A DNA stretch of 35,840 nucleotides. Source: Sphaerisporangium sp. (GTDB taxonomy: Bacteria; Actinomycetota; Actinomycetes; Streptosporangiales; Streptosporangiaceae). The notes beneath the pieces were generated by a model. It did no database searches, was not told where the DNA came from, and worked only from the letters and a program-made list of their open reading frames with translations. Location: assembly GCA_025964675.1 (NCBI GenBank), contig JAOPYI010000217.1, positions 1 to 35,840 on the forward strand. Reading direction: 5' to 3'. Made by a program: the position numbers and the translations under genes. How positions within the stretch are numbered: the first letter of the stretch is position 1; every line of letters begins with the position of its first letter. Positions 2,508-23,859 of this stretch are shown here, one piece after another.

Positions 2508-4328
2508 ATGAGCGAGCACCGACACGGCGCCACGGTCAGCGACCACCGCGGTGAGCCGCCACCGTCCGGCCGCAGGTCGAGTCGTGGCCGTCCGGCGGAA
2601 ACCCCGAACGGCCCCCCTCCCGGCGAGGGCGAGCGCCGCCGCCGCCGGGGCGCCACCCATGTCCCGCAGGCCCCCGAGGAGCAGCCGGGCGCGTACGACG
2701 CCTACGGTTCACCGGGCGTGCCGCCCGTCGAGGAGCAGCACACCCCGCGTCGCCGCAGGGGCGGGCCTCCCGAGCCCCCTCCGCCCCCTGAGAATCCCGG
2801 CAGAGGGCGCCGCCGCGGCGGCGGGAACGGCCCCGGCGACGCCGGCAACGGCCGCATGCGGGTCATGGCCTGGATCAGCATCGCGCTCACCTGCGTTCTG
2901 GTCCTGCTGGCGCTGACGGGTTACACGCTCTACCGCAGCCTGCTCGGCAACCTCCGCACGCAGGACGTCACCGGCGACCTCAACGCCAACCGGCCGGTCA
3001 ACAGCACCGGAGCGCTCAACGTGCTGCTCGTCGGATCCGACTCCCGGGCGGGCGACAACAAACAGTACGGCCAGCACATGGTCGGCGGCGGCGAGCGCAC
3101 CGACACGATCATCCTCATGCACGTCTCGCCGAACCGCGACAAGGCGACGCTGATCAGCTTCCCCCGCGACTCGATGGTGCAGATCCCGTCGTGTAAGAAC
3201 GCCACGACCAAGGCGGCCCTCCCTCCCCGCCTCGACATGATCAACTCGGCGTTCAACGAGGGCGGCATGAGTTGCACGATCAACACGATCGAGGCCACCA
3301 CCAACATCCGCGTCGACCACTACATCAAGGTCGACTTCACGGGCTTCAAGAGCATCGTGGATGCGCTCGGCGGCATCCAGATCTGCGTGCCGCAGGTCGT
3401 CGACGACAAGCAGGCCAAACTGCACCTCCAAAAGGGGAAGCAGATCGTGCAGGGCGAGACCGCTCTGGCGTACGTGCGGGCGCGCCACTCCCTCGGTGAC
3501 GGCAGTGACATCAGCCGCATCAAGCGCCAGCAGATCTTCCTGTCCCAGGTGGCGAAGAAGGCCACCAGCGGCGACACGCTCACCAACCCCGTCAAGCTGG
3601 GGAGCCTCATCACCGCCGCCGCCAAGGCGGTCGTGATGGACCCGCAGCTCGACGTCGACACCCTGATCCAGATCGCCCAGAGCGCCCGCAGCCTCACCGC
3701 CAAGGGTGTCAAGTTCGTCACGGTTCCCTGGGAGGCCTACCCCACGGACAAGAACCGCGTGCAGTGGAAGCAGCCGGACGCCAGCAGGATGTTCGAGTCG
3801 CTCCGCACCGACGTCGAGGTCACCCCGACGGCCAAGCCGAGCGCGGCGTCGTCCGCCTCGGCCGGGCCCGCCAAGCCGGCGATCAAGCCGGGCCAGGTGC
3901 AGATCCAGGTGCTCAACGGCACCAACACCTCGGGCAAGGCCAAGGAGGTCGCCGAGGCTCTGGCCGCCCAGGGCTTCAAGGTCACCCAGGTGGGCGACGC
4001 GCGGCAGGCGGACGGCACCGACCGGCCGCAGACCATGGTCCTGTGGGCCAAGAAGGCGACCGACGGCGGCGACTACGCCGCCCCGTTGGCCGCCAAGCTG
4101 CTGACCAAGGTGACCCCCGCCGCGGGCAAGGTGAAGACCGGGCTCGTCACGCCCTTCACCCCCTCTGCGACGGCCACGCCTCCCGCGGGCGCGGCCGTCA
4201 CGCCACCGGCCGGAGCACCCGTGATCCAGCTGGTCATCGGCGCCGACTTCAAGGGAGTCAAGGTTCCTGTCACCATCCCGGACAGCGCCCGCGTGGTCGA
4301 CTCCAAGACCGACGTCTGCAGCACCTGA
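2508..4328 (+). CDS. LytR-CpsA-Psr (LCP) family wall-polymer ligase with LytR_C domain
   Basis: 606 residues. LCP enzymes move glycopolymers from polyprenyl phosphate carriers to peptidoglycan outside the membrane. Residues 1-118 are a Pro/Arg/Gly-rich cytoplasmic region. Residues about 119-142 form one membrane helix (MAWISIALTCVLVLLALTGY). The LCP domain follows from about 165, with VGSDSRAGDN near 175, GERTDTIILMHV near 195 and FPRDSMVQIP near 218. An Arg-rich block, YVRARHSLGDGSDISRIKRQ, comes at roughly 325-345. These Asp and Arg residues bind the pyrophosphate head of the lipid substrate in known LCP structures. A LytR_C-like domain (IQVLNGTNTSGKAKEVAEAL) follows a Ser/Ala/Pro linker near residue 465. 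The ATG at 2508 lies just after a -10-like TAACCT. A strong terminator follows at once, so this is probably a single-gene transcript. Confidence 0.93.
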   Translation: MSEHRHGATVSDHRGEPPPSGRRSSRGRPAETPNGPPPGEGERRRRRGATHVPQAPEEQPGAYDAYGSPGVPPVEEQHTPRRRRGGPPEPPPPPENPGRGRRRGGGNGPGDAGNGRMRVMAWISIALTCVLVLLALTGYTLYRSLLGNLRTQDVTGDLNANRPVNSTGALNVLLVGSDSRAGDNKQYGQHMVGGGERTDTIILMHVSPNRDKATLISFPRDSMVQIPSCKNATTKAALPPRLDMINSAFNEGGMSCTINTIEATTNIRVDHYIKVDFTGFKSIVDALGGIQICVPQVVDDKQAKLHLQKGKQIVQGETALAYVRARHSLGDGSDISRIKRQQIFLSQVAKKATSGDTLTNPVKLGSLITAAAKAVVMDPQLDVDTLIQIAQSARSLTAKGVKFVTVPWEAYPTDKNRVQWKQPDASRMFESLRTDVEVTPTAKPSAASSASAGPAKPAIKPGQVQIQVLNGTNTSGKAKEVAEALAAQGFKVTQVGDARQADGTDRPQTMVLWAKKATDGGDYAAPLAAKLLTKVTPAAGKVKTGLVTPFTPSATATPPAGAAVTPPAGAPVIQLVIGADFKGVKVPVTIPDSARVVDSKTDVCST

Positions 4329-7582: not shown

Positions 7583-7623
7583 ACGGCTGGCGCCCCGCAC
7601 CACGGATTGGTGTACTTGACCTT

Positions 7624-8364: not shown

Positions 8365-8475
8365 TCGTCGCTGGGATGATACTCGCGGGGTAGGACAGTT
8401 CCCGCCGCAGGGAGTCTCGCGAGTTCGTGAGCGTTTCCTCGCGGAGCGTAGTCAACTTCCTTTTGGAATGGGTGC

Positions 8476-9911: not shown

Positions 9912-10804
9912 CGTGTGAACGTCCCCGCCAGGTACTCGGCGGCCTGCCCGGCCGCGAACCGCTGAAGCGGGCCGAAGTACCAGGCGGGATCGAAGGTCCT
10001 GCGGTAGCGCAGCCGGACGCTCAGCTGTGTGCGCGTCCAGGTGAACTCGGCCTCTCGCAGATCGAGCCAGCGAGCCAGAGTCGTGTCCCGTACGACCTCG
10101 AACACGACCCGCCCCGGCGACCGCTCGCTCACGCGCAGACTCATCGACCGGGGCTCGGCCACGGCTCCTATGCCAAGAGAGCGACGCGGGGTGAACGTGA
10201 TCTCGCGGGTGGCGCCGACCTGCAGTCCCTGACCTCGCGCGGCCAGCGGCTGGGGGAAACCCATCCGCAGGAAGGGCGACTCGAACGCGACGAACACCGG
10301 CGGCGCGGTCAGCGCGCGCTCGACGTCCACCGCGCCGACCACGCGGATCGCGCTCACCTCCTCGCCCCGGGGCAGGGACGTGGCGCCGGTGGCGCCCTCG
10401 GCCATGGCGAGCAGGAGCAACGGCACAACGATCATGTTCACGCCGCGACGCCGGCGGTAGAACTCGACCAGCCCCCCGACGACCAGGCCGACGACATAGA
10501 AGAGCGGCGCGGCGAAGACCAGGCAGACGATCCCCTCGCCGAGCAGCGGGCCCGCCAGTGCAAGCCCGATCGTGATGGTGGCCATGATCAGTCCGGTGGC
10601 GGACCTTGGCCGCACTGTGAGTGCGACGGTGATCGCGATGACGGCGGGGATGCCGACGTAGAACACCGCCGTCTGCTCGAGACGCCCCGCGTGCAGCACC
10701 TTGTAGACCACCATCGCCGCGAACAGGGCCGCGAGCACGCCCGCCAGAATCCGGCGCGCTCGCTTCTCGTCCTTCTGGTCGGGTTCCACCACGGCCTCTT
10801 TCAT
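9908..10804 (-). CDS. Membrane protein of unknown function with C-terminal soluble domain
   Basis: 298 residues, not recognised as a named family. Five hydrophobic segments occupy roughly residues 19-165 (for example ILAGVLAALFAAMVVYKVL and GIVCLVFAAPLFYVVGLVVGGLV). A predicted soluble domain of about 130 residues follows. It is rich in beta-like alternation (REITFTPRRSLGIG, GRVVFEVVRDTTLARWLDL) and ends ATWYFG-like: DPAWYFGPLQRFAAGQAAEYL. The soluble part could be a lipid- or polyketide-binding (SRPBCC-like) fold, but that is only an impression. It is the first gene of a two-gene operon, divergent from a TetR regulator with only 63 bp between starts. A palindrome covers its likely promoter, so repression by that regulator is likely. 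Confidence 0.8.
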   Translation of the reverse strand: MKEAVVEPDQKDEKRARRILAGVLAALFAAMVVYKVLHAGRLEQTAVFYVGIPAVIAITVALTVRPRSATGLIMATITIGLALAGPLLGEGIVCLVFAAPLFYVVGLVVGGLVEFYRRRRGVNMIVVPLLLLAMAEGATGATSLPRGEEVSAIRVVGAVDVERALTAPPVFVAFESPFLRMGFPQPLAARGQGLQVGATREITFTPRRSLGIGAVAEPRSMSLRVSERSPGRVVFEVVRDTTLARWLDLREAEFTWTRTQLSVRLRYRRTFDPAWYFGPLQRFAAGQAAEYLAGTFTR

Positions 10805-11521: not shown

Positions 11522-12421
11522 TCAGACGATGGGGGGGCGGCCGAGGCGGAGCATGCGCCAGGCGGTGCGCCAGGCCATCGGGCGGCGTTCTCCGGCGGAC
11601 TGCTGGAAACCTTCCTTGAAGCCCCGGAACCACGATCTGATGGCCAGCGAGGACCGCTCCCGCACGAGCGTCAGCACGACCCAGTCGAGGAGGTAGAGGA
11701 CCGCCAGTGCCCACGGAAGGTTGCGGCGGGCCAGCCAGACCCGGTTGCGCGCGTTCAGCCGGTAGAAGTCGGCGTGGCGCGTCGGTGGGACCTGCGGGTG
11801 GTACATGACGGCGTCCGCGTCGTACTCGATGCGGTAGCCCTCCCCGAGGAGGCGCCAGGCCAGGTCGGTCTCCTCATGGGCATAAAAGAAGCGGCCCGGA
11901 AGGCCGCCGACCTGCAGGAACGCCGCGCGCCTGATGGCGCAGGCGCCGCCTAGGAAGGTCGTCACCGGTGAGGATCGCTGCGGGTCGCCGGCGCGCAGCC
12001 GGGGCACGTGGCGCCGCTGGCCGACGCCGCCGTCGGGGTCCATGACGCGGAAGGAGATCACCGCGAGGTCGGGCTCGGCGGCGAACCGCTCCCGGACGTG
12101 CGCGGCCACCTTGTCGTCGGCGTACCAGCCGTCGTCGTCCAGGAACAGCACGACGTCGCCCGTGCACTCGCGGACCCCGTGGTTGCGGCCCTCGGGGATG
12201 CCGACGTTGTGCGGGATGCGCACGATGCGCACGGAGGCGGAGCCGGGCTTGGAGAAGTCGGCCAGCCGGGGCACGTCAGCGCCGTTGCCGACGACCACGA
12301 CCTCGACGTCGCCGTCGGTCTGCGTCAGCGCGGACTCGACAGCCCGGTCGAGCTCGGCGACCCGGTTGCCCATGGTGAGGATGACACACGAGATCTTCAA
12401 CGCGTCATCGCCTGGACGCAC
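11522..12421 (-). CDS. Family 2 glycosyltransferase (GT-A fold)
   Basis: 299 residues from a GTG at 12421. A TTG at 12400 would give MKISCVILTMGNR, the usual N-terminus of this family, so the true start may be there. The GT-A domain shows ISCVILTMGNR (nucleotide-binding strand), VGIPEGRNHGVRECTGDVVLFLD with the DDD metal site at about residues 94-96, and a later FYAHEETDLAWRLL carrying the catalytic-base-like Glu/Asp. The C-terminus has a hydrophobic segment (LPWALAVLYLLDWVVLTLV, about 233-251) and a basic tail, so it is probably membrane-attached. Rhamnosyl- and galactofuranosyl-transferases of wall polymers look like this, but the sugar cannot be assigned. It is transcribed in the same direction as the CDP-alcohol phosphotransferase group upstream of it, after a 189-bp gap. 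Confidence 0.87.
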   Translation of the reverse strand: MRPGDDALKISCVILTMGNRVAELDRAVESALTQTDGDVEVVVVGNGADVPRLADFSKPGSASVRIVRIPHNVGIPEGRNHGVRECTGDVVLFLDDDGWYADDKVAAHVRERFAAEPDLAVISFRVMDPDGGVGQRRHVPRLRAGDPQRSSPVTTFLGGACAIRRAAFLQVGGLPGRFFYAHEETDLAWRLLGEGYRIEYDADAVMYHPQVPPTRHADFYRLNARNRVWLARRNLPWALAVLYLLDWVVLTLVRERSSLAIRSWFRGFKEGFQQSAGERRPMAWRTAWRMLRLGRPPIV

Positions 12422-12610
12422 GGAGAACGCATGGAATCATGATCACCGAGTCTTGGTAAGCGGGCCATCCGGCTTGTGTCTGCATACTGCGAAATAAGGG
12501 TATCGGAACTGCCAGCAAACGCTTGCCAAACATTGACCGGGAATTCGGCGGGGGCTCTTGACAGAGATAGGACGCCGGAGAGCCGCCTCAGGTTCCGAAG
12601 CTTTCTCATC
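12422..12610. other. Intergenic region upstream of the GT2 gene with a LacI-like palindrome
   Basis: This gap is less GC-rich than its surroundings. It contains GCAAACGCTTGC at 12515-12526, an imperfect palindrome (5 of 6 per arm) around a central CpG, which is the form of LacI-family operators. No LacI gene is in the window. It probably carries the GT2 promoter, but I cannot name a convincing -35/-10 pair. Confidence 0.3.
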
Positions 12611-13378
12611 TCACGCAAGCCGCCTCGACGCCAGGATGCTCACGAGGTGGAGAACCGTCTGGAGCCCGGCGAAGATCACGCACGCCACCATCAGCACCTG
12701 GGTCGCGGTCACACCCCCCGCCACGGCGTCCCAGACGGCGGCGATCACGGCGATGATCGACAGCTCCACGGCCTGGATGACCCGGTGGAAGCGCAGCGCC
12801 CCAACTACCTTCCTCGCCATGCCGAGGCGGCGCGACTGGAAGTGCTCGGCCGCCGCCTCCGTGGTCGCGACCAGGCCCGAGCGGGCGCGGGCGACGTCGA
12901 CCAGGTCGGTCTCCGACTTGATCAGGATGGCCCCGAGCGCGGCGGCGAAGCCGAGCACGGTGTACCAGTCGGGCAGCGTGGCGGAGGCCCGGAACCCGAG
13001 CCCGATCAGCAGGGCCGCCTCGGCGAAGTAGTGGCCGACACGGTCGAGGTACACCCCGGTGATCGAGGTGCGGTTCGTCCACCTCGCCAGCTCGCCGTCG
13101 GAGCAGTCGAGCAGCAGGTAGACCTGGATCAGCACCGCCGCCGCGACGGCCGCCCACAGGCCCGGGAGGGCCAGCACGGCGCCCGCGAGCAGCCCGGCCA
13201 GGATCATCAGGCCGGTGACCTGGTTGGGCGTGAGCGGCGTGCGTGCCAGTGCCCACGTGACGTAGATCGACAGCTTGCGCATGTAGAGCGCGCCGGCCCA
13301 GTGCTCGCCGGAGTTGCGGTCCATGGTGGTCTGCGGCTGGGCGACCGCGCGCAGCTCAATGACCGACGGCCCGGACAT
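12611..13378 (-). CDS. CDP-alcohol phosphotransferase family membrane protein (variant active site)
   Basis: 255 residues from the ATG at 13378; a GTG at 13396 is an in-frame alternative adding 6 residues. CDP-alcohol phosphotransferases move a phospho-alcohol from a CDP-linked donor to a second alcohol. The signature D-x2-DG-x2-AR-x8-G-x3-D-x3-D is present as LLDCSDGELARW (D91, D94, A98, R99), then G108 and D112. The fourth Asp, the proposed catalytic base, is His116 (LDRVGHYF). About six membrane segments surround it. The 5' end overlaps the end of the G1PDH-like gene by 23 bp, showing tight coupling. With the dehydrogenase and nucleotidyltransferase genes upstream it forms a plausible make-activate-transfer set. 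The arrangement recalls the IPCT/DIPP-synthase pair that makes phosphodiester-linked polyols in thermophiles. Confidence 0.87.
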   Translation of the reverse strand: MSGPSVIELRAVAQPQTTMDRNSGEHWAGALYMRKLSIYVTWALARTPLTPNQVTGLMILAGLLAGAVLALPGLWAAVAAAVLIQVYLLLDCSDGELARWTNRTSITGVYLDRVGHYFAEAALLIGLGFRASATLPDWYTVLGFAAALGAILIKSETDLVDVARARSGLVATTEAAAEHFQSRRLGMARKVVGALRFHRVIQAVELSIIAVIAAVWDAVAGGVTATQVLMVACVIFAGLQTVLHLVSILASRRLA

Positions 13379-14414
13379 ATTCCTCCACCCGGTCACGCGC
13401 CTCCGCCTCGGAGAGGCGCAGGTGCTCCAGAATCGTGTATCGCCCGGGACGGGTCGACGGTGCCAGCATCACCGCGGCGGTGAACTGCTCGGCCGTCAGG
13501 CCGACGTCGCCAGGGGTGACCGGCAGGTCATGGCCGCGCAGGCAGTCGGACACCAGCGAGAGCCGGCGCTCGTCCTCGCGCAGGAAGAAACAGAAGGCCG
13601 CTCCGACTCCGGCGAGCTCGCCGTGGTTGGAGGTGCCTGGATAGAGCTGATCCACGGCATGCAGGATCTCATGATCTCCACCACTGCCGGGACGGGACGA
13701 ACCCGCGACCACCATGGACATGCCCGACAGGATCAGCGACTCGGCCAGGACCGTCAGGAACGCGTCGGACTCGATCGAGTCGGTGCGCCCGAGCACGGCC
13801 TCGGCGCTGGTGCGCGCCATGGCGACGGCCAGGCCGTCGATGGGCTCGCCGCGCTCGACGTTGCCGAGCTGCCAGTCCTCGATCGCCGACAGGTTGCTGA
13901 TCACATCGCCCGCGCCCGCCCGTACGAGCGAGGGGGGCGCGCCGTGCACGAAGTCGAGGTCGACCAGGATCGCCAGGGGCATCGGAACGCCGAACGACCC
14001 CTTGCCGGCCTCGTGCTCCAGCGAGGAGACGGGCGAGCAGATGCCGTCGTGGGAGAGGTTCGTGGCCACGGCGACCATCGGGATGCCGGCGAGCGACGCG
14101 GCGTACTTCGTCACGTCGATCGTCTTGCCTCCGCCGATGCCTACCACGGCTTCGTACGCGCCCTTGCGCAGGTCGGCGCCGAGCGAGACGGCGGCGTCCA
14201 CCGAGCCGTCCGGCACCCGGAACACCTCGGCCTCGCCCAGCGTGGGCGCGATCATGCTGGAGATGTGGTCGCCCTGCCCCGCGCCGACCGCGACCGCGAC
14301 CCGGCCGGAGGTGGCCACCCGGCTGTCGGCGAGCAACGCGCCGAGCTGCGCCACCGCGCCGCGGCGGACCTCGACGGTCAGCGGGGCCATGAGCATTCGT
14401 GCTAGGAGCGGCAT
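13356..14414 (-). CDS. sn-Glycerol-1-phosphate dehydrogenase-like (EgsA/AraM-type) enzyme
   Basis: 352 residues; the ATG at 14414 follows an AAGGGAG ribosome site. The fold is that of metal-dependent group III alcohol dehydrogenases. GIGGGKTIDVTKYAA at about 92-106 binds NAD(P). ATNLSHDGICSPVSS at 117-131 is the characteristic glycerol-1-phosphate dehydrogenase loop. The metal ligands are Asp170 (GAGDVISNLS), His248 (SGGDHEILHA) and His264 (GTSNHGELAG). EgsA-type enzymes reduce dihydroxyacetone phosphate to sn-glycerol-1-phosphate. Related enzymes act on other ketose phosphates, so the exact substrate is open. The gene overlaps the CDP-alcohol phosphotransferase gene downstream and follows the nucleotidyltransferase gene by 58 bp, which argues for one pathway making and using an activated polyol phosphate. 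Confidence 0.88.
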   Translation of the reverse strand: MPLLARMLMAPLTVEVRRGAVAQLGALLADSRVATSGRVAVAVGAGQGDHISSMIAPTLGEAEVFRVPDGSVDAAVSLGADLRKGAYEAVVGIGGGKTIDVTKYAASLAGIPMVAVATNLSHDGICSPVSSLEHEAGKGSFGVPMPLAILVDLDFVHGAPPSLVRAGAGDVISNLSAIEDWQLGNVERGEPIDGLAVAMARTSAEAVLGRTDSIESDAFLTVLAESLILSGMSMVVAGSSRPGSGGDHEILHAVDQLYPGTSNHGELAGVGAAFCFFLREDERRLSLVSDCLRGHDLPVTPGDVGLTAEQFTAAVMLAPSTRPGRYTILEHLRLSEAEARDRVEEYVRAVGH

Positions 14415-14472
14415 GCGCGCTCCCTTACGGTCGTCGTTCCGTCGACCGGCCTAGAGCCGGTGGACGGCTCGG

Positions 14473-15207
14473 CTAGTAGGTGCACGCGATCTCCCGGGCC
14501 TTCGCGAGGTCGTCGTGGTTGTCGACCTCGACCCAGTCGACCTTGCCGATGGGGGCGACGGCGATCTTCTCGCCACGGGTCACCATCTCGCCGTACCCGT
14601 CCTCGTAGTAGAGCTGGGGGTCGCGCTCGAAGGTGGCCTTCAGCGCGTCGGCGAGGCGCTCGGCGGCTCCCGCGCGGATCAGGGTGGCGCCGATGTACTC
14701 GCCGAAGGACTCGGACGGGTCCATCAGCTTGGTGATGCGCCGCAGGTGGCCCGCCTCGTCGAGCGTGACCTTCATCTCCTCGTCGGCGAGCGACTTGACG
14801 TTGTCGACGGCGAGCAGGATGTCGCTGGTCACCGGGGCCTCCAGCAGCGTGCGCTCGACCGAGACCGGGTGGACGGTGTCGCCGTTGACCAGGAGCGCGC
14901 CCTCGGAGAAGTGGTCACGCGCGCACCACAGGGAGTATGCGTTGTTCCACTCCTCCGCCTTGTCGTTGTGCACGAGTGTGAGTTTCACGTCGTGCCGCCG
15001 CTCGAGCTCCGCCTTGCGGTCGTGGACGGCCTGCGCCGCGTAGCCGATGATCACCACGACGTCCCTGAGGTCGACCGCCGCGAGGTTCCGCAGGGCGATG
15101 TCAAGGATCGTGGTTTCTCCGTCGACCGGCACGAGCGCCTTGGGCAGCGTGTCGGTGTACGGCCGCAGGCGTCGTCCGGCCCCGGCGGCCAGCACCATTC
15201 CCAGCAA
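14473..15207 (-). CDS. Sugar/polyol-phosphate nucleotidyltransferase, LicC/IPCT-like (probable cytidylyltransferase)
   Basis: 244 residues from a TTG at 15207, chosen because GAGGGG lies 7 bases upstream and the protein then starts MLGMVLAAGAGRRLRPYTD. The frame is open further upstream, but no family sequence is there. The nucleotide-binding signature is LAAGAGRRLRPYT...LPKALVPV (Lys23). Metal-binding Asp110 is in LLVNGDTVHP and Asp229 in VDWVEVDNHDD. EEWNNAYSLW at about 85-94 resembles the N-x-YSL segment of LicC and inositol-phosphate cytidylyltransferases, which favours CTP as co-substrate. It would activate the polyol phosphate made by the dehydrogenase encoded next. It is the first gene of a run of three or four genes on this strand. 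Confidence 0.87.
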   Translation of the reverse strand: MLGMVLAAGAGRRLRPYTDTLPKALVPVDGETTILDIALRNLAAVDLRDVVVIIGYAAQAVHDRKAELERRHDVKLTLVHNDKAEEWNNAYSLWCARDHFSEGALLVNGDTVHPVSVERTLLEAPVTSDILLAVDNVKSLADEEMKVTLDEAGHLRRITKLMDPSESFGEYIGATLIRAGAAERLADALKATFERDPQLYYEDGYGEMVTRGEKIAVAPIGKVDWVEVDNHDDLAKAREIACTY

Positions 15208-15344
15208 CGTGCACCCCTCAATCAAGCCAGAATCTGTAGGCCAAAGGTTAGTTGCCTGCAGGTGGTGATCGTGTAATCCGATGTTCACCTATTCCGTAAC
15301 AACACCAATCGTTGGCATTGACCGATCGCATCGGAGGGGGGCCT

Positions 15345-15968
15345 TCAGTCCTGCCCGCCGAGGTCGGCCGCCTCTACCCCGGATCGTGGCGCGGCGAGCC
15401 AGCAGGTGACGCTCTCCCAGCAGAACAGCCCCGTGAGGTAGACCGCGGCCAGCGCGAAGACGGGCGTGACGACGCCCAGCAGGGCGCCCATGGCCACCAG
15501 GAGCATCCGGCCCTCCCAGCCGAGCCCCGCCGATGCGAGCCAGGCGGGCGGGTAGACGTGCTGCCGGCAGCGGTAGACGACGTCGTAGTGGTGGAACAGC
15601 ATCGCGCCGAGCACGGCGAACAGGAGCACCCTCGGCACGTCGCACGAGAAGCCCACGCAGGCGATGAAGCCGTACTCCGTGAGCCGGAGGATCGGCGGCA
15701 CCAGCCAGTCGAGCCGCCCATCGTGTGGATGGGAACTGCCCGGGCCCGCGAGCAGCAACGCCACGGCGGGCGCGAAGACGGACGGCCCGTCGGCGCCCGC
15801 GACGCCGAGGAACAGCATCACGCCGGTCACGAACGCCCCGGCGAGCGCGGGCGGCAGCGGCGGCAACTGCCCCGCGACGAGCAGGCCCATGCCGCGCGCC
15901 AGCACCCCGTCGTCGCGGTACGTCACCACGGAGCTGCTCGGCACCGGCGCCATGTGCACCCTGGTCAT
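15345..15968 (-). CDS. Small polytopic membrane protein, DUF5941-like
   Basis: 207 residues from the ATG at 15968, just 2 bases after the stop of the upstream CDP-alcohol phosphotransferase gene. The start is MTRVHMAPVPSSS, followed by VTYRDDGVLARGMGLLVAGQLPPLPP and then four to five membrane segments (LAGAFVTGVMLFLGVAG, LTEYGFIACVGFS, VLLFAVLGAMLFHHYDVVYR, MLLVAMGALLGVVTPVFALAAVYLTGLF). The RDDG...GQLPPLPP start and HHYDVVYR helix look like the C-terminal domain of actinobacterial proteins annotated DUF5941, which I recall as fused to a CDP-alcohol phosphotransferase; that name is from memory. Here the two parts are separate coupled genes. The function is unknown and probably accessory to the phosphotransferase. 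Confidence 0.75.
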   Translation of the reverse strand: MTRVHMAPVPSSSVVTYRDDGVLARGMGLLVAGQLPPLPPALAGAFVTGVMLFLGVAGADGPSVFAPAVALLLAGPGSSHPHDGRLDWLVPPILRLTEYGFIACVGFSCDVPRVLLFAVLGAMLFHHYDVVYRCRQHVYPPAWLASAGLGWEGRMLLVAMGALLGVVTPVFALAAVYLTGLFCWESVTCWLAAPRSGVEAADLGGQD

Positions 15969-15970
15969 GA

Positions 15971-17632
15971 TCAAAACGACCTCGCGATCCTGCCGGTGAG
16001 CGTGTAGAGCGCGGCCAGCCCGCCCCAGGCCAGCAGCGCGAGGAAGGTCACCCGGGCGTTGAACAGCGCCGCGGTCACGGCGATCAGCACCATGCGCTCG
16101 CCGATGGGCAGCACGACGATCTTCTTCAGCCAGCGGGACGCGGTGTTCCTGTCGAGGCGGGCGGACAGCCGCACCACGGAGCCGTCCGCCCGCCCCGGCG
16201 GCGTCCCCGCCTTCCACGGCCCGCCGGTGTCTCCCCTGAGCGGGACGGAAAGCCCCAGCGAGTCCCCGTGCCCGGGACGCTCCCAGACAGGGTCGGTGCC
16301 CACGGCGTCCGCCCGCGCCCCGGCGTACGAGAAATCGATCATGTGGCGGATGGCCTGGACCAGCATGGCCGCCACCGCGAGGGCCCAGACGCCGTCCGGG
16401 CCCGCCGAGCCCCGCTCGACCCCCCCGGCGTACCCGAGGGCGAGCCCGACGTAGACGACGTACTCCTTGACGCGGTCGAACGTGGCGTCCAGCCAGGCGC
16501 CGAGGGGCGAGAACATGCGGGTGTAGCGGGCGAGCTGCCCGTCCACGCAGTCGAGGACGAACGACAGGTAGACCAGCACGGCTCCGGCGACCTGAGCGGG
16601 GCGCTGCCCCGCGGAGAAGGCGATGGCCGCGAGGCCCGCCAGGCCGACGGACAGCCCGGTGACGGAGTTCGGGGTGAGCCCCATATGCGCGGCCAGCCGT
16701 ACCACGTGGCCCGACCACGAGCTCACGAGGTAGGTCGCGACGAAGCCGTCGTCGGACTTCACGGCCGCCGACAGGCGGGCCTGGTCCTCGTCGATCTCGC
16801 TCAGCCTCGCGATGGCGGCGTCGGCGCCAAGCTGTCCCGTGACCCTGTCGCAGTGCAGCCGCCCGAGTGGCGCCGCCCGAACGGGCACGCCGACGCGTAC
16901 GAGCCCGGCGAGCAGCAGCTCTGGCACCTCCGTCTCGGTCGCACCGCCGAGACCGTGGTCGTGGGCGAGGTCGGCCAGTTCGTCCGCGACCTCGGCGAAG
17001 CTCACGAGATCGGCCTCCCCCACGTGCAGCACGCCAAGGAAGCCGCCGTTGGCACTGCTCACGGTGTGGAAGGAGTTGCCGGCGGCGGTCACCCGGCCCC
17101 GCTCGGTCCTGACCGGGGGGCCGTCGTGGTCGGGTGAGACGAGCGCGCCCGTGCCGTGGGCGGGATCGGCCAGAAGAAGGGCCAGCGCCTCGGTGTGGGC
17201 GACCAGGTCTCCCGGCAGCACCGCCACCGGGCCCGAACCGGCCCGGGCGATGGCGGCGACCGCGCGCAGGTCACCGGTGAGCCCGCCGCTCCACGTCATC
17301 TGGGGCACGGTCACCGGCTCCGTCAGCGGCACGGTGAACCGCTCGGTCGCGGGCTCGGTCTCCGGCTCGGCGACGAGCACGGCCGGACGTGACGGCGGGG
17401 CCGGCCGCTCGGCGGACCTGGTCACGATGTGCGACCGGCGGACCTGTAGCGTGACGAGCTGCCGTGACAGCCGATCGACCAGAGTGCCTTCAGCGCACGC
17501 CAGGCCGGTCGACGGGGTGGTGGCGAGCACGACCGCGACGGCCGCCGGCGCTTTGGTCTCGGGAGGTTCCGCGGAGGCGGGGAGAGGCTTTCTGGGAGGC
17601 TTCACAGGGGGTGGGTACGCGGAATCAGGCAA
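15971..17632 (-). CDS. CDP-alcohol phosphotransferase with N-terminal degenerate nucleotidyltransferase-like domain
   Basis: 553 residues from a TTG at 17632, chosen because GGAAGGAG lies 8 bases upstream and a good promoter (17673-17702) sits just before. A GTG at 17719 would add 29 residues but would place the promoter inside the gene. Residues about 30-290 have the size and alternating strand pattern of a nucleotidyltransferase domain (AVAVVLATTPS, PVAVLPGDLVAHTEALALLL) but lack the G-x-G-x-R and PK signatures, so this half is probably inactive or regulatory. The C-terminal half has the full CDP-alcohol phosphotransferase motif: FVLDCVDGQLARYTRM, then G, then WLDATFDRVKEY with the fourth Asp intact. 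About six membrane helices follow. The stop is 2 bases from the DUF5941-like gene. The donor and acceptor are unknown; a wall-polymer linkage step is likely from context. Confidence 0.85.
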   Translation of the reverse strand: MPDSAYPPPVKPPRKPLPASAEPPETKAPAAVAVVLATTPSTGLACAEGTLVDRLSRQLVTLQVRRSHIVTRSAERPAPPSRPAVLVAEPETEPATERFTVPLTEPVTVPQMTWSGGLTGDLRAVAAIARAGSGPVAVLPGDLVAHTEALALLLADPAHGTGALVSPDHDGPPVRTERGRVTAAGNSFHTVSSANGGFLGVLHVGEADLVSFAEVADELADLAHDHGLGGATETEVPELLLAGLVRVGVPVRAAPLGRLHCDRVTGQLGADAAIARLSEIDEDQARLSAAVKSDDGFVATYLVSSWSGHVVRLAAHMGLTPNSVTGLSVGLAGLAAIAFSAGQRPAQVAGAVLVYLSFVLDCVDGQLARYTRMFSPLGAWLDATFDRVKEYVVYVGLALGYAGGVERGSAGPDGVWALAVAAMLVQAIRHMIDFSYAGARADAVGTDPVWERPGHGDSLGLSVPLRGDTGGPWKAGTPPGRADGSVVRLSARLDRNTASRWLKKIVVLPIGERMVLIAVTAALFNARVTFLALLAWGGLAALYTLTGRIARSF

Positions 17633-17672
17633 CCGGGGGTCTCCTTCCGCGACCGGGGATCGTCCACCCCGC

Positions 17673-17702
17673 AAAGTAACCGAGCCGTCACGCACCTCGC
17701 AA
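17673..17702 (-). promoter_or_regulatory. Promoter for the CDP-alcohol phosphotransferase operon
   Basis: On the minus strand TTGCGA (17702-17697) and TACTTT (17678-17673) are spaced by 18 bases, matching 4 of 6 positions at both elements. Transcription would begin near 17666, 18 bases before the ribosome site GGAAGGAG at 17648-17641 and 34 before the TTG start at 17632. The geometry supports the shorter start choice for that gene. Confidence 0.55.
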
Positions 17703-17897
17703 TCCCATCGGCGAGTCACGCGGCGCGCCGCTGGTCACGGGGCTGCCGTCATCGAGCCGCCGGTCACCCGAGAGCACGGGCGGTGACGCGGCGCCATCGG
17801 GCCACGGGGCCGGGGCGCGGGGCGGTGACGCGGGTACCGCCTCCGGGTAGTGATCAGTAGGGTCAGCCGTGAACGAGTCACTGAAGGAAGTCCTACC

Positions 17898-19310
17898 TTG
17901 ACCGCACTGGAACCACGCCTCCGGACCGTCGGAGTGGTCCTCGCCGGCGGAATCGGGCAACGCGTCGGGCTCAACACGCCGAAGCAGCTCCTGAAGATCG
18001 CCGGACGCACCATCATCGAGCACACCCTGACCGTCTTCAACGCGGCGCCCGAGATCGACGAGATCATCGTCCTGATGGCCCCCGGCTACACGGCCCAGGT
18101 CGAGCAGCTCGTCAAGCGCGGCGGCTTCCACAAGGTCAGCAAGATCGTCGAGGGCGGTGCGAGCCGTACCGAGTCGACCTGGCGGGCCCTGCAGGCGCTC
18201 GGCCCCGAGGAGTGCGACGTGCTCCTGCACGACGCCGTGCGCCCGCTGCTGGAGCATCGCATCATCTCCGAGTGCGTCGAGGCCCTCAGGGTGTACTCCG
18301 CGGTCGACGTCGCGATCCCGTCCTCCGACACGGTGGTGGTGGCCGCGCCCGGCCCGCGAGGCGAGATCATCCGCGACATCCCGGACCGCTCCCGCCTGCG
18401 GCGGGGGCAGACGCCGCAGTGCTTCCGGCTGTCGGTGATCCGTGAGGCGTACGAGCGCGCCTTCGCCGACCCCGACTTCGACAGGCAGCCCGCCACCGAC
18501 GACTGCGGCGTGGTGCTGCGCTACCTCCCTGACGTCCCGATCTACATCGTGCCGGGCAGCGAGCACAACATGAAGGTCACCCACCCGGTCGACGTCTACA
18601 TCGCCGACAAGCTCTTCCAGCTCGCCTCCAACACCGCGCCGGTGCCCGCGGGCCCGGCCGCCTACCGGCGGGCTCTCGCGGGCAAGACCGTGGTCGTCTT
18701 CGGCGGCAGCTACGGCATCGGGGCCGAAATCGTCGACCTCGCCACCGGGTACGGCGCCAACGTCCACTCCTTCTCGCGCACCCAGAACGGCGTGCGCGTG
18801 GAGAACGCCGTCTCGGTGTCCGAGGCCCTGGACCAGGCGGCGAAGGAAAGCGGGCGCGTCGACTACGTGATCAACACCGCCGGCGTGCTCCACATGGGCA
18901 AGCTCGGCGAGGCGGACGACCTCACCGTCGAGGAGACCGTCGGCGTGAACTACCTCGGCCCGGTCAACATCGCGAGGGCGGCCATCCGCCACCTCCGCGA
19001 GACCAAGGGGCACCTGCTGCTCTACACCTCCTCGTCCTACACCCGGGGCCGCGCCGACTACAGCCTCTACTCCTCCACCAAGGCGGCCGTGGTGAACCTC
19101 ACCCAGGCGCTGGCGGACGAGTGGGCCGAGTACGGGGTCCGCGTCAACTGCGTCAACCCCGAGCGCACCGGCACGCCCATGCGGCACAGGGCCTTCGGCG
19201 ACGAGCCCCCGGCCAGCCTGCTGTCCGCCCGCGCGGTCGCCCAGACCTCCATCGATCTGCTCGTCTCCGACCTCACAGGCCAGGTGATCGACGTACGCCG
19301 CGCCCCGTGA
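17898..19310 (+). CDS. Bifunctional cytidylyltransferase (IspD-like) / SDR reductase, CDP-ribitol-synthase-like
   Basis: 470 residues from a TTG at 17898, with AAGGAAG 7 bases upstream; an upstream ATG in frame at 17850 has no ribosome site. Residues about 8-235 form an IspD/TarI-type domain: VVLAGGIGQRVGLNTPKQLL binds CTP, VLLHDAVRPLL lies near 108-118, and an Asp-containing end follows (KVTHPVDVYIADKL). Residues about 262-470 form a short-chain dehydrogenase: GGSYGIG at 269-275, NTAG at 326-329, and the catalytic Ser plus Tyr391-x3-Lys395 (YSSTK). The same fusion order is found in Haemophilus Bcs1/Acs1, which reduces ribulose-5-phosphate and makes CDP-ribitol. By analogy this enzyme makes CDP-ribitol or a related CDP-polyol for the TagF-like polymerase next door. 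The last 25 bp are repeated in tandem just after the stop. Confidence 0.87.
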   Translation: MTALEPRLRTVGVVLAGGIGQRVGLNTPKQLLKIAGRTIIEHTLTVFNAAPEIDEIIVLMAPGYTAQVEQLVKRGGFHKVSKIVEGGASRTESTWRALQALGPEECDVLLHDAVRPLLEHRIISECVEALRVYSAVDVAIPSSDTVVVAAPGPRGEIIRDIPDRSRLRRGQTPQCFRLSVIREAYERAFADPDFDRQPATDDCGVVLRYLPDVPIYIVPGSEHNMKVTHPVDVYIADKLFQLASNTAPVPAGPAAYRRALAGKTVVVFGGSYGIGAEIVDLATGYGANVHSFSRTQNGVRVENAVSVSEALDQAAKESGRVDYVINTAGVLHMGKLGEADDLTVEETVGVNYLGPVNIARAAIRHLRETKGHLLLYTSSSYTRGRADYSLYSSTKAAVVNLTQALADEWAEYGVRVNCVNPERTGTPMRHRAFGDEPPASLLSARAVAQTSIDLLVSDLTGQVIDVRRAP

Positions 19311-19335
19311 GATCGACGTACGCCCTGCCCCGCGA
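19286..19335 (+). repeat. 25-bp tandem duplication spanning the stop codon of the CDP-polyol synthase gene
   Basis: The 25 bases at 19286-19310, which end in the TGA stop, are repeated at 19311-19335 with 3 mismatches. In the second copy the TGA has become CGA. The shared core is GATCGACGTACGCC. It looks like a local slippage duplication. Confidence 0.85.
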
Positions 19336-19383
19336 GTGGGTACAAGACCATCAACGCGCGGGGACACGACCGGGGGGCCGTCG

Positions 19384-21258
19384 ATGGGGTGGGTGCGTCG
19401 AAACATGCGTGGAGCGTTCCTCGCGGGACTGCTGCTGCTGTCGTTCCCGGCGCTGATGGTCACCGCGCTGTACCCATTCCCCGTGGCGTTCGCCATCGTG
19501 GTGGCGTTGTCGTACGGCGCGGAGGTGGCGTCCGGGCGCGTGGCGCGGCCGGTGCTCGATCGGCTCGGCATGATCCACCTCGGGGTCAGCGTGCGGTTCC
19601 TGGCCCGGGAGGTCGGCGCGGTGCTCCTCGTGGCCCGCACGGCGGGCACGGGCCGGTGGTTCGTCCTCCTGTGCGCAGGGCTCCTGCTCATGCACGTGCT
19701 TCGCGTGCTCCAGGCCGGTACCGCGATCTACCTCGACCGCTGCCTCAACCTGATGCCCGTGGCGACCAGGAACATCGACGTGCCCGCGCTGCGGATCCCC
19801 GGGGAGCCTCCGGGAGGGCTGGCCGGATGGCGCGGCGCGCGGCTGTTCTACATCGACGTCCTCCCCGTGGGCGCGATCGCGGCCGGCGCGCTCACCGGTC
19901 AAGAGGCCCTCGCCCCGGGTACGGCGGGGCTTGGCACGGCCGGAAACGCCGCTGCGGGCTTGGGTACGGCCGCGCTGGGCGGGGCGGGGCTCGGCGCGGC
20001 CATCGCGCTGCAGGCAGCCGCCGTGCTCGTGCTGCTGCTGCACGCGCGGCGGGCGGTGCCGCTGGCGAACGGCGAGCGCGTGATCACGGTGGTCGACCGG
20101 CGGGTCCAGGCCTACCACCCTGAGGTGATCTTCTACTTCTCGGGCCCGGCCACCTCCGCCTACCAGGCCACCATGTGGCTCGACACGCTGTCACGCCTGA
20201 CCCGCCGCACGATCGTCGTGCTGCGGGAGCGGGAGCTTCTCCCCCTGCTCGGGCCGACGACGCTCCCGGTGCTGTGCGTGCCGTCCGCGATCGATCTGAT
20301 GAACCTGCGCGGGCTCGACAGCGCCCGTCTCGCCCTCTACGCCTCCAACGTCGGCAAGAACATCCACCTGCTGCGGGTGCCGGGCCTGCGCAGCGTCTTC
20401 GTCGGCCACGGCGACAGCGACAAGGAGGCCTCGTTCAACCCGTTCTCCAAGGCGTACGACGAGGTGTGGGTCGCTGGGCAGGCCGGGCGCGACCGCTACC
20501 TCCGCGCCCAGGTAGGCGTGCGCGACGAGGACATCGTCGAGGTCGGCCGCCCGCAGCTCTCGGGGATCAGGACAAGGGGGCCGGGCCTGCCGGCCGTCAG
20601 CGTGCTCTACGCGCCCACGTGGGAGGGCTGGACCGACGACCTGTTCCACACCTCGCTCATCACGATGGGCCCGAAGCTCGTACGGGCCCTGCTCGCGCAC
20701 TCCCCGGCCGTACGGCTCATCTACAAGCCGCATCCGCTGACGGGTGAGCGGGACCCGCGCGCCACCACGGCCCACCGGAGGATCATCGAGATGCTCGGGG
20801 CCGCCTCGGTCCCCAGCCGTCCCGCCGGGGTGGCGGCCTCACCCGGGACGGCGCCGCACACCGCACGACATCGGGTGGTCACCGGTCCCGAGCCGCACCT
20901 GTACGACTGCTTCAACGACTGCGACCTGCTGATCAGCGACATCTCCAGCGTGGTCGCCGACTTCATCGCGAGCGGCAAGCCGTATGCCGTGACCAACGTC
21001 GCCGGGATGGCCGGCCACGTGTTCCGAGAGCGCTATCCGAGCGCGGAAGCGGCGTACCTTCTCGGCCCGGACCTGGTGGAGCTGCCCGGAATCCTCGCTC
21101 AGCTGCGGCGCGCGGGCGAGGACGACCTGGCCGGGGCCCGGCGCGAGATGAAGACCTACCTGCTCGGGCCCGACAATCCGGACGCGATGACCCGCTTCGA
21201 CGAGGCGGTCAACCGCGCCTACGACATGGCGACGCTCAACGGCACGCTGCGGCTCTAA
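19384..21258 (+). CDS. TagF-like CDP-glycerol/CDP-polyol glycerophosphotransferase family polymerase
   Basis: 624 residues from the ATG at 19384, which follows a GGGGGG run; a GTG at 19336 is a longer alternative. Residues 1 to about 225 are hydrophobic, with several membrane segments and an odd Gly/Ala/Thr-rich stretch at about 178-205 (TAGLGTAGNAAAGLGTA). The polymerase domain follows. It has HGDSDK at 342-347, YAPTW at 409-413, KPHP at 448-451 and DLLISDISSVVADFIASGKP after residue 500. These are the conserved blocks of the CDP-glycerol glycerophosphotransferase family, which builds poly(polyol-phosphate) chains of teichoic acids. The N-terminal membrane region is unlike Bacillus TagF, which is peripheral. 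It lies 73 bp after the CDP-polyol synthase gene on the same strand, so substrate supply and polymerisation are probably co-expressed. Its stop overlaps that of the convergent GT2 gene. Confidence 0.9.
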   Translation: MGWVRRNMRGAFLAGLLLLSFPALMVTALYPFPVAFAIVVALSYGAEVASGRVARPVLDRLGMIHLGVSVRFLAREVGAVLLVARTAGTGRWFVLLCAGLLLMHVLRVLQAGTAIYLDRCLNLMPVATRNIDVPALRIPGEPPGGLAGWRGARLFYIDVLPVGAIAAGALTGQEALAPGTAGLGTAGNAAAGLGTAALGGAGLGAAIALQAAAVLVLLLHARRAVPLANGERVITVVDRRVQAYHPEVIFYFSGPATSAYQATMWLDTLSRLTRRTIVVLRERELLPLLGPTTLPVLCVPSAIDLMNLRGLDSARLALYASNVGKNIHLLRVPGLRSVFVGHGDSDKEASFNPFSKAYDEVWVAGQAGRDRYLRAQVGVRDEDIVEVGRPQLSGIRTRGPGLPAVSVLYAPTWEGWTDDLFHTSLITMGPKLVRALLAHSPAVRLIYKPHPLTGERDPRATTAHRRIIEMLGAASVPSRPAGVAASPGTAPHTARHRVVTGPEPHLYDCFNDCDLLISDISSVVADFIASGKPYAVTNVAGMAGHVFRERYPSAEAAYLLGPDLVELPGILAQLRRAGEDDLAGARREMKTYLLGPDNPDAMTRFDEAVNRAYDMATLNGTLRL

Positions 21259-22286
21259 GATCGGGGCGGCCTGCCAAGGCTCGGCGGGCTGGTGAGGAAG
21301 CCCCAGCCCCACGAGACGTGCATGGTGGCGTACACCAGCGGCAGCCGCGCCAGAGCGCCCGGGGACAGCCCCCGGCCGGTGAGCACCGAGCCGGCGAGGA
21401 TCGCCAGGATGTACGCCCCGGGGACCAGCAGGCCGTACGGGAAGAACGGCGACACGACCAGGCCGAGCAGCATCGCCAGGACCGCGAGCGGCGGGGCGAG
21501 GTAGCGGAGGTTGATCGTGCCTTCGTGGGTGCGGGCCACGACCCGGCGCCAGCGACCGTAGTGGAAGTACTGCTTGGCGAGGGCCTTGACCGTCGGCCGC
21601 GGCCGGTAGGAGACGCGCATGCGGGGCTGGAACCACACCAGGCCGCCGGTCTCGCGGATGCGGTGGTTCATCTCCCAGTCCTGCGCGCGCTCGAAGTGCT
21701 CGTCGTAGCCGCCGACCCGCGCCAGCGCCTCCCGGCGGAAGACCCCGAGGTACACCGTGTCGGCCGGCCCCGGCTCCCCTCCTGTGTGGAACCGGGCGTT
21801 GCCCACGCCGATCCTGGAGGTCATGGCGCACGCCACGGCCTGCTCGAACGGCGTGACGCCCTCGGCGGCCATGATGCCGCCCACGTTGTCGGCGCCGGTG
21901 CGTTCGAGCGTGTCGACGGCCACCTGGAGGTAGTCCTCCGGGAGCATGGCGTGGCCGTCGACGCGGGCGATGATCTCGTTGCGGGACGCCCCGATGGCGG
22001 CGTTGAGAGCGTTCGGCGTGCGTCCCGTGGGGTTGGGCACCACCGTCACGCGGGGATCCTCGGCCGCGAGGGCGTCGGCCACCTCCTGCGTGCGGTCGCG
22101 AGACGGGCCGATGGCGAGGACGACCTCGATCGGTCCGTCGTAACGTTGAGCGAGCACCTGTCGTACGGCCTCACGCAGATGGCGCTCCTCGTTGAGCACC
22201 GGCATGACGACCGAGATCGGCGGCCAGACTCGTGTGGTCCGGCTGGTTCGGGGCGAGTCGGGGAACTCCTTCATGGCGGCGCTCAC
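21255..22286 (-). CDS. Family 2 glycosyltransferase, ExoA-like, with C-terminal membrane helices
   Basis: 343 residues from a GTG at 22286; an ATG at 22274 (MKEFPDSPRT) is an alternative. A TACAGT -10-like hexamer lies only a few bases upstream, so the leader is short either way. The GT-A domain includes ISVVMPVLNEERHLREAV at about 24-41, IGPSRDRTQEVADAL, IIARVDGHAMLPEDYL with the metal-binding D-x-H/D at about 108-112, and HFERAQDWEMNHRIRETGG with the catalytic acidic residues near 196-202. The C-terminus has about three helices (LAPPLAVLAMLLGLVVSPFF onward). ExoA-like enzymes extend lipid-linked surface glycans. Stops of this gene and the TagF-like gene overlap tail to tail by 3 bases (21255-21258 in all). 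Confidence 0.88.
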   Translation of the reverse strand: MSAAMKEFPDSPRTSRTTRVWPPISVVMPVLNEERHLREAVRQVLAQRYDGPIEVVLAIGPSRDRTQEVADALAAEDPRVTVVPNPTGRTPNALNAAIGASRNEIIARVDGHAMLPEDYLQVAVDTLERTGADNVGGIMAAEGVTPFEQAVACAMTSRIGVGNARFHTGGEPGPADTVYLGVFRREALARVGGYDEHFERAQDWEMNHRIRETGGLVWFQPRMRVSYRPRPTVKALAKQYFHYGRWRRVVARTHEGTINLRYLAPPLAVLAMLLGLVVSPFFPYGLLVPGAYILAILAGSVLTGRGLSPGALARLPLVYATMHVSWGWGFLTSPPSLGRPPRS

Positions 22287-22371: not shown

Positions 22372-23859
22372 TTGAGCGACGACGACTCTGGTGTTCACGT
22401 CGGCGGCGACGCGTACGGCGGCGTGAGGCTGTCACAGCGCCGCTCGAAACGGGCGCGGTCGAGCGTCCGCACGCTGATGGTGACCGGCGCCCTTTCCAGC
22501 GCCGTGCTGCTCGGATCGGGCGTGCTGTGGTTCCTGTCGGCCTACGCCTCGAACCAGATCAAGCGGGTCAACGCCGGCACCGCCGGGTCCGACGCGCGTG
22601 GCGCGATGAACATCCTTCTCGTGGGCGTCGACAAGCGCGACGACCTGACGCGGCAGCAGCAGAACCAGCTCCGCCTGGGCCGGGAGGTGGGCCAGCGCAG
22701 CGACACGATGATGGTGATCCACCTCTCGGAGGATCACTCGAAGGTCACGGTGGTCAGCCTGCCCCGGGACAGCTGGGTCGACATCCCAGGGAAGGGCACC
22801 CACAAGATCAACGCAGCGTACTCCCTCGGCGGGGCCCGTCTGGCCGTCCGCGCCGTGCAGAACGCCACGGGGCTGACCATCAACCACTACGTCGAGGTCA
22901 ACGTGCTCGGGTTCATCAACGTCGTGGACGCCCTCGGCGGAGTCTCGGTGTGCACCCCCGTCGCGATCAACGACCTGCACACCAAGTTCCAGCTCCAGCC
23001 GGGCACGTACGAGCTCAACGGGGTCAAGGCGCTCTTCTACGCGCGCACCCGCGCCACCGCGCGTTCCGACCTCGACCGCATCGACCGGCAGCAGCAGGTC
23101 ATCTCGGCCCTGCTCCAGCGGGCGCTCTCTGGCGGCACCCTCGCGAACCCCGCGAAGCTCACGGGTCTGGTCAGCTCCACGCTGAAGACCCTCACCGTGG
23201 ACGAAGCCCTTGCCAAGGACCTGATCGGGCTCGCCGGCCAGCTCAAGGACGTGTCGACCGACGATGTGGCCTTCACCACTGTCCCGCTCGCGGACGTGAA
23301 CTACACCGCTCCCACAGGGGAGTCGGCCGTGCTGTGGGACAAGACCGCGGCGCGCGAGCTGTTCAAGCGGATCGGGGCCGACGAGCCCCTGGTCAAGCCG
23401 ACGGTCTCCAGCAGCGCCTCGCCCACGCCGTCCGCTTCGGCCTCCGCCACAGCCTCCGCCACCGCCACCGCCCCGAGCGTGTCGCCCTCCCGCATCGTGG
23501 TCCGCGTCGTCAACGGCACGGCCATCACCGGCCTCGGCGCCCGCGCCAAGACCGACCTGCGGAAGGTGGGTTTCCAGGTGCCGGCCGCGCCGGGCGACAC
23601 CAGCACCAGGGACGCCACGAACACAGTGGTGCGCTACCCCGCCGGGCGGGAGGACTCCGCCCGCACCGTCGCCGCCGCCATCCCCGGAGCCGACCTGCGC
23701 CAGGCCGACGTCCAGGGCATCGAGGTCGTCGTCGGCACCAAGTACTCCGGCACGAAGAAGGTCACCGTCAAGGAGACCACCGCCTCCCCCTCCACCACCC
23801 CCTCAGCCTCCGGCACCCCCGTGGCCAAGACCGCCACCCAGAACATCTGCAAGAAGTAG
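22372..23859 (+). CDS. LytR-CpsA-Psr (LCP) family wall-polymer ligase (second copy)
   Basis: 495 residues from a TTG at 22372 preceded by GAGGGGG. A short basic cytoplasmic tail is followed by one membrane helix at about 34-57 (LMVTGALSSAVLLGSGVLW). The LCP domain starts near 78 with NILLVGVDKRDDL. It continues with QRSDTMMVIHLSEDHSK, VSLPRDSWVDIPG, HKINAAYSLGG, then INHYVEVNVLGF and YARTRATARSDLDRIDRQQ. A Ser/Ala/Thr linker (about 345-375) leads to a LytR_C-like domain (IVVRVVNGTAITGLGARAK). It lacks the long Pro-rich N-terminus of the LCP protein encoded at 2508-4328. Its place beside the polymerase and glycosyltransferase genes makes it the likely attachment enzyme for that polymer. It converges with the next gene, with 8 bp between stops and no hairpin. 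Confidence 0.93.
   Translation: MSDDDSGVHVGGDAYGGVRLSQRRSKRARSSVRTLMVTGALSSAVLLGSGVLWFLSAYASNQIKRVNAGTAGSDARGAMNILLVGVDKRDDLTRQQQNQLRLGREVGQRSDTMMVIHLSEDHSKVTVVSLPRDSWVDIPGKGTHKINAAYSLGGARLAVRAVQNATGLTINHYVEVNVLGFINVVDALGGVSVCTPVAINDLHTKFQLQPGTYELNGVKALFYARTRATARSDLDRIDRQQQVISALLQRALSGGTLANPAKLTGLVSSTLKTLTVDEALAKDLIGLAGQLKDVSTDDVAFTTVPLADVNYTAPTGESAVLWDKTAARELFKRIGADEPLVKPTVSSSASPTPSASASATASATATAPSVSPSRIVVRVVNGTAITGLGARAKTDLRKVGFQVPAAPGDTSTRDATNTVVRYPAGREDSARTVAAAIPGADLRQADVQGIEVVVGTKYSGTKKVTVKETTASPSTTPSASGTPVAKTATQNICKK

Follow-up and report, generated by a model that had tools for sequence, protein, structure and literature searches.

A conserved gene module for a probable CDP-polyol pathway and a variable IspD-SDR/TagF-like module in Sphaerisporangium and other actinobacteria

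Described systems and the locus

The gene neighbourhood of Sphaerisporangium sp. analysed here is located on contig JAOPYI010000217.1 (assembly GCA_025964675.1), one whole contig of 35,840 bases—referred to as the window—from a host genome of 7.77 Mb, and has its closest described counterparts in Archaeoglobus, in wall teichoic acid clusters, among the CDP-ribitol synthases, in an ether-lipid pathway of Bacillus and in a synteny block of Streptomyces. It comprises a minus-strand operon (module 1; 11522-17719) with the order CAPT1, DUF5941, NT, G1PDH, CAPT2 and GT2a, i.e. two CDP-alcohol phosphotransferases (CAPT1 and CAPT2), a protein of the same fold (DUF5941), a cytidylyltransferase (NT), a dehydrogenase resembling sn-glycerol-1-phosphate dehydrogenase (G1PDH) and a glycosyltransferase (GT2a), as well as, divergent from it, the genes for an IspD-SDR fusion and a TagF-like protein (module 2). 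The actinomycete order of the organism, Streptosporangiales, is called the host order throughout.

The Archaeoglobus proteins IPCT-DIPPS and Af2299 join a nucleotidyltransferase (NTase) to a CDP-alcohol phosphotransferase, and CDP-glycerol is reported as the donor for Af2299 (PMC4634129; this and the other papers are cited from excerpts). CAPT1 matches the structure 4mnd over both domains; the NTase half of CAPT1, however, lacks the signature, and the window operon adds the G1PDH-like enzyme, the pseudo-phosphotransferase DUF5941, a His-type CAPT2 and GT2a, with an exporter in related loci. The wall teichoic acid clusters (TagD, TagF, TagGH, LCP) share with the locus the CDP-polyol logic, a TagF-like protein, LCP ligases and, in related loci, a TagH-like exporter, whereas here TagD exceeded its cut-off in none of 200 host-order genomes, the dehydrogenase is of the sn-glycerol-1-phosphate (G1P) type and the phosphotransferases belong to the CDP-alcohol family. 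The CDP-ribitol synthases of the Bcs1/TarI type are likewise IspD-SDR proteins; the IspD half of the window protein favours TarI and groups with free-standing IspD-SDR proteins, whereas in the host order the IspD of the locus is the sole strong one in 10 of 13 genomes and the SDR domain is often missing. The AraM-PcrB pathway of Bacillus has a dehydrogenase of the same AraM/EgsA family, but PcrB/GGGPS over the cut-off is found in 0 of the 200 host-order genomes, activation of the CTP type taking the place of prenyl transfer. Finally, the Streptomyces crtB-tagH-tagG-araM block (PMC13118837) has the gene content of one of the loci studied here (L033), the two being presumably identical; the passage concerned names the genes and mentions araM, tagG, tagH, a CDP-alcohol phosphotransferase and a GT2 gene as teichoic-acid related, while the pathway, motif and fold analysis is added here.

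The conserved six-gene module

The first module may well encode a single CDP-polyol pathway that serves the cell envelope, probably by way of sn-glycerol-1-phosphate, a reading based on sequence comparison to which we would give an even chance. Pfam and NCBIfam confirmed every gene listed in the first-pass annotation, which had overlooked DUF5941, the gene whose ATG lies 2 nt past the CAPT1 stop. The operon consists of the following genes:

15971..17719, minus strand: CAPT1, 582 aa, an NTase-fold domain without the motif joined to a CDP-alcohol phosphotransferase (Pfam, motif, fold)
15345..15968, minus strand: DUF5941, 207 aa, CDP-alcohol-phosphotransferase fold without the catalytic motif (fold, motif check)
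14473..15288, minus strand: NT, 271 aa, LicC/IPCT-like cytidylyltransferase, NTP_transferase, with the GTG start as listed (Pfam, NCBIfam)
13356..14414, minus strand: G1PDH-like dehydrogenase, 352 aa, EgsA/AraM family, Fe-ADH_2 (Pfam, NCBIfam)
12611..13396, minus strand: CAPT2, 261 aa, CDP-alcohol phosphotransferase whose fourth motif position is His (Pfam, motif)
11522..12421, minus strand: GT2a, glycosyltransferase, the 3'-most gene of the conserved six-gene order (Pfam)

The module was mapped at 123 loci, consisting of 40 hand-picked stretches (within the host order mostly one per genus), 80 loci from a contig scan—the 80 best-ranked of 551 relatives, with a single Nitriliruptorales sequence as the reference—and three records from a plasmid collection. 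The sample is uneven, at least two contigs are duplicated (L087/L118 and L093/L121), and the locus counts are lower bounds because some contigs are short. NT adjoins G1PDH at 117 loci, a CDP-alcohol phosphotransferase is found on the same strand within 400 bases of G1PDH at 108, and both partners are present at 105. The complete six-gene set is present at 59 loci, with the degenerate CAPT1 orthologue c31 counted as CAPT1, and 14 of these have no IspD inside 8 kb. The earlier proposal is thus supported in so far as dehydrogenase, cytidylyltransferase and phosphotransferase keep together in the manner of one make-activate-transfer path, and the conserved gene order that was to be looked for across actinobacterial genomes does exist; the three separate routes that had been claimed are, however, reduced to two modules, since CAPT1, DUF5941 and CAPT2 share a single gene order. 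Taken together, the first-pass annotation is partly supported, with a first module that is conserved and separable and a second one that is variable and perhaps housekeeping.

Within the host order, tblastn over 24 stretches detected NT, G1PDH, CAPT2, DUF5941, GT2a, an IspD and the neighbouring glycosyltransferase GT2b in all 24, the ligase LCP2 in 23, CAPT1 in 22 and TagF in six. NT beside G1PDH was also seen in Streptomyces, Micromonospora and deeper-branching loci, and at 40 loci, most of them in Micromonosporaceae, another phosphotransferase (c8), which has the full motif, takes the place of the partner. Streptomyces loci combine the six genes with a TagGH-like exporter beside hopanoid genes; there and elsewhere module 1 occurs without IspD-SDR/TagF. 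Such a separation of the trio, coupled with an unrelated known function, had been named as the outcome that would contradict the first-pass annotation; the separation was found, an established function of the trio in such loci was not. A G1PDH relative is present in 199 of the 200 host-order genomes and, across the phylum, in 32 of 296 genomes at E ≤ 1e-40.

As far as the first enzyme is concerned, its nearest solved structures are the archaeal G1PDHs 4rgq and 4rfl (E 3e-41, query residues 80-345), and it matches the NCBIfam model PRK00843 at E 1.6e-70. In 16 aligned sequences, His248 and His264 are invariant and Asp170 nearly so (numbering of the first row), all three being presumably metal-site ligands of G1PDH. 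The closest relative of NT is LicC (1jyk, E 4.3e-14), the NTase signature being kept in 14 of 14 aligned sequences. The two products would thus probably be sn-glycerol-1-phosphate—the most likely polyol, in line with the earlier suggestion—and CDP-1-glycerol. The same operon logic could also serve another polyol, with a tetrulose or pentulose phosphate being reduced and NT supplying an actinobacterial teichoic acid with CDP-tetritol or CDP-pentitol. Other polyols do occur in wall polymers of actinomycetes, the dehydrogenase scores 237.8 bits, i.e. under the PRK00843 equivalog cut-off of 413, and its best stretch against archaeal G1PDH begins only at residue 80. The catalytic half, however, closely resembles archaeal G1PDH and keeps the SSRPxSGxxH and HGE blocks, and a CDP-glycerol donor is reported for Af2299, the closest phosphotransferase of known structure (PMC4634129); we regard another polyol as rather unlikely.

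The competing pathways were searched for, together with G1PDH, in one draw of 200 host-order genomes. GGGPS/PcrB over the cut-off was found in none of them, the window's genome included (one weak match), and neither was TagD, again with the window's genome included (five weak matches at E ≤ 1e-15, the cut-off being a strict 165 bits), while TagF-type polymerases are present in 194. The G1PDH-NT pair is thereby left as the best candidate for supplying CDP-glycerol. The result also bears on the idea, put forward for bacteria possessing G1PDH, GGGPS and DGGGPS, that G1P is destined for ether lipids of the archaeal type: Streptomyces species with all three genes have been described, and the bacterial clan of G1PDH is said to include an actinobacterial part (PMC6431249), whereas in the host order, which the GGGPS census covers, the count of 0 against 199 for G1PDH argues against that use, and the operon has a cytidylyltransferase and phosphotransferases instead. 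Ether lipids therefore appear extremely unlikely as the destination.

Phosphotransferase-fold proteins and the proposed pathway

CAPT1 gives a Pfam CDP-alcohol phosphotransferase match of 39.8 bits (cut-off 22) and holds the complete D..DG..AR...G...D...D motif (DDDD), all four Asp being kept in 40 of 42 cluster members. Its N-terminal domain is recognised by fold only; the match to 4mnd corresponds, by fold, to the IPCT-DIPPS architecture, and, with Af2299 as the nearest solved relative of both CAPT1 and CAPT2, the likeness to IPCT/DIPPS seen in the first reading is real. The NTase signature is found in 0 of 45 CAPT1 sequences, and an Arg comes after the fourth Asp in all 45. The orthologue c31, occurring in 18 loci including Nocardiopsis, has lost the motif (HHalign probability 99.6). 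Both the predicted architecture and the Arg could speak for a soluble product, namely a compatible solute such as Archaeoglobus makes, of the glycerophosphoinositol or di-inositol-phosphate type; in PgsA1, the corresponding Arg is described as critical to acceptor-phosphate binding (PMC6506517, in the part cited). With GT2, exporter and LCP genes as neighbours and an NTase half devoid of its signature, a solute seems very unlikely.

DUF5941 takes the CDP-alcohol-phosphotransferase fold in a structural model computed with two extra N-terminal residues, and the catalytic motif D..DG..AR is present in 0 of 20 sequences. The Pfam family DUF5941, whose name was not found in the literature searched, thus looks like a CDP-alcohol phosphotransferase without the motif, a structural identity that the model suggests. 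In CAPT2, the fourth motif residue, presumably the catalytic Asp, is His in 57 and Ala in eight of 65 cluster members, and Asp in none; the best profile match per locus yields 61 His, nine Ala and two Asp out of 72, both Asp matches being weak (37 and 44 bits). CAPT2 thereby breaks the rule given in PMC4634129, where the section cited describes absolute conservation of all eight motif residues and states that replacing the fourth Asp by Asn nearly abolishes activity. A degenerate CAPT1 and an Ala-type CAPT2 were never met together in one locus, although the independent events are few. The fold identity of DUF5941, the His/Ala substitution in CAPT2 and the motif-less NTase-fold domain of CAPT1 are new here.

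In the proposed pathway, the G1PDH-like enzyme, judging from its family, would reduce a ketose phosphate, most likely dihydroxyacetone phosphate, to sn-glycerol-1-phosphate, which the LicC-like NT would activate with CTP to CDP-1-glycerol. The membrane proteins CAPT2 and CAPT1, the latter with DUF5941 as its pseudo-phosphotransferase half, might then hand glycerol phosphate on to an acceptor in the membrane or to a glycan; GT2a would glycosylate the product, and a TagGH-like ABC exporter (in many lineages) and LCP ligases, as the neighbourhood suggests, would export and attach it. The best reading of the destination of the CDP-polyol is, from the gene content, an envelope phosphodiester: an exporter pair of the TagGH-like kind is near the module at 29 of the 123 loci and LCP genes are inside 12 kb at 43, both counts depending on locus length. 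For the exporter ATPases of L033 and L159, TagH-type models fit best, with scores below the cut-offs.

The same counts, which indicate a wall polymer, oppose the possibility that CDP-1-glycerol is combined with diacylglycerol or a glycolipid into a phosphoglycolipid of the membrane, no wall polymer being made. A diacylglycerol acceptor would, by reasoning, yield ordinary phosphatidylglycerol stereochemistry, and CAPT1 with DUF5941 would, according to the models, double the membrane helices, extra C-terminal helices being known from eukaryotic enzymes with lipid acceptors (PMC4634129, section cited). Moreover, hopanoid (hpn) genes lie near the module at all seven Streptomyces-type loci (L032, L033, L088-L091 and L099, two of them from Streptomyces and five from genomes of a single genus), whereas this is not the case in Embleya L170. 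On balance, a membrane lipid is considered unlikely.

The envelope pathway via sn-glycerol-1-phosphate can be extended, in a tentative and somewhat doubtful manner, to the proposal that in Actinomycetota with this operon CDP-1-glycerol replaces the TagD product as the main CDP-glycerol, that the His-type phosphotransferase and TagF-type polymerases build wall polymers with a chirality that is the mirror image of Firmicute glycerol wall teichoic acid, and that the active/inactive pair CAPT1-DUF5941 replaces the usual homodimer. The envelope pathway itself, if it does run via the archaeal-type mirror form of glycerol phosphate, would be a route thought absent from bacteria: the vast majority of bacteria have been taken to lack free sn-glycerol-1-phosphate, and bacteria were assumed likely to lack CDP-1-glycerol (PMC8262930, 2021, in the part cited), an assumption that becomes directly testable with a G1PDH relative in 199 of 200 genomes and an adjoining cytidylyltransferase. 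The actinobacterial G1PDH would also gain a possible destination other than archaeal-type lipids, and genomes with TagF-type polymerases and TagD below the cut-off a candidate source of CDP-glycerol.

Several points weigh against the sn-glycerol-1-phosphate pathway. The dehydrogenase is under its equivalog cut-off and NT under every NCBIfam cut-off shown, so that the substrate may be a different ketose phosphate and the nucleotide a different one as well; the strict TagD cut-off could let a divergent glycerol-phosphate cytidylyltransferase escape, CDP-ribitol could feed the TagF-type enzymes instead, and G1PDH, GGGPS and DGGGPS do occur together in the Streptomyces species mentioned above. It should also be noted that CAPT2 is devoid of the fourth Asp, that soluble acceptors are used by the characterised six-helix CDP-alcohol phosphotransferases (PMC4634129, section cited), which makes a solute fit as well as a polymer, and that Pfam revealed no exporter, of the TagGH kind or otherwise, among the 38 window translations.

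The IspD-SDR/TagF-like module and its surroundings

The second module and the genes around it, whose LCP ligases and glycosyltransferases flank the cluster as first described, are arranged as follows, with GT2b and LCP2 beyond the module:

17850..19310, plus strand: IspD-SDR fusion, divergent from the operon (Pfam, NCBIfam)
19336..21258, plus strand: TagF-like protein, 640 aa, with a hydrophobic N-terminal part (weak Pfam match)
21255..22286, minus strand: GT2b, glycosyltransferase, a conserved neighbour in the host order (Pfam)
22372..23859, plus strand: LCP2, LCP-LytR_C ligase (Pfam, NCBIfam)
2508..4328, plus strand: LCP1, LCP-LytR_C ligase of the outer flank (Pfam)

The IspD half scores 113 bits with TarI (4jis) versus 97 bits with the mycobacterial IspD (2xwl), and Pfam matches the SDR domain in full; the TagF-like protein matches PF04464 weakly and in part (profile 194-289 of 367), with 23.1 bits at a cut-off of 22.1. 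In the evolutionary tree, the fusion clusters with free-standing actinobacterial IspD-SDR proteins, away from 11 canonical IspDs (branch 100/100), a twelfth row labelled canonical (L230) being placed across that split, with a long branch. The window's genome possesses two IspDs of the IspD-SDR clade and none of the canonical clade. The second one (L237, C277 of the window's genome, 9426-14853) is followed by two tandem TagF-like proteins, to which the TagF-like protein of the window is 42% and 46% identical, and a similar pair exists in a Streptomyces-type genome; these copies show that the pairing of IspD-SDR with a TagF-like protein is genuine in actinobacteria.

Among the 47 loci with an IspD, the SDR domain is present in 21, a TagF-like gene in 16, a GDPD gene in 19 and none of these in six; no IspD was seen in 76 of the 123 loci, some of which are short contigs. 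The GDPD (GlpQ-family) gene is near IspD at L159:3925-4680 and at 18 other loci, Nocardiopsis-type and others. In the host order, an IspD is at the locus in 24 of 24 stretches, whereas SDR and TagF are variable, and IspD-SDR/TagF is a second, separable and lineage-variable module of the same neighbourhood.

The IspD of the locus is the only one above about 45 bits in 10 of 13 host-order genomes (G000, G184, G050, G113 and others); IspF is present in all 13, and a canonical-clade IspD was seen in none of those searched. In both Streptomyces-type genomes searched, canonical IspD adjoins IspF. The TarI-like paralogue at the locus may have displaced the canonical IspD in the host order. Because IspD persists, often as the sole strong one, whereas SDR and TagF come and go, it may serve the MEP (isoprenoid) pathway in a housekeeping role. 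The IspD-SDR/TagF pair itself recurs elsewhere, but the claim that it supplies a second polyol is weakened, the making of CDP-ribitol, in particular, being doubtful; with this lesser weight, a second supply may still be envisaged for the window's own fusion with its full-length SDR match. That two polyols are mixed in one polymer, as the first-pass annotation suggested, is a conjecture.

With regard to the rest of the window, the region 6384-10804 encodes a GT1, an acetoacetate-decarboxylase-family protein, a PEMT-like membrane protein and an uncharacterised protein, with an adjoining TetR regulator; relatives of the GT1 and of the acetoacetate-decarboxylase-family gene are near the module in several family members. 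A single protein encoded at 25744-27261 unites GNAT acetyltransferase and AAA ATPase domains.

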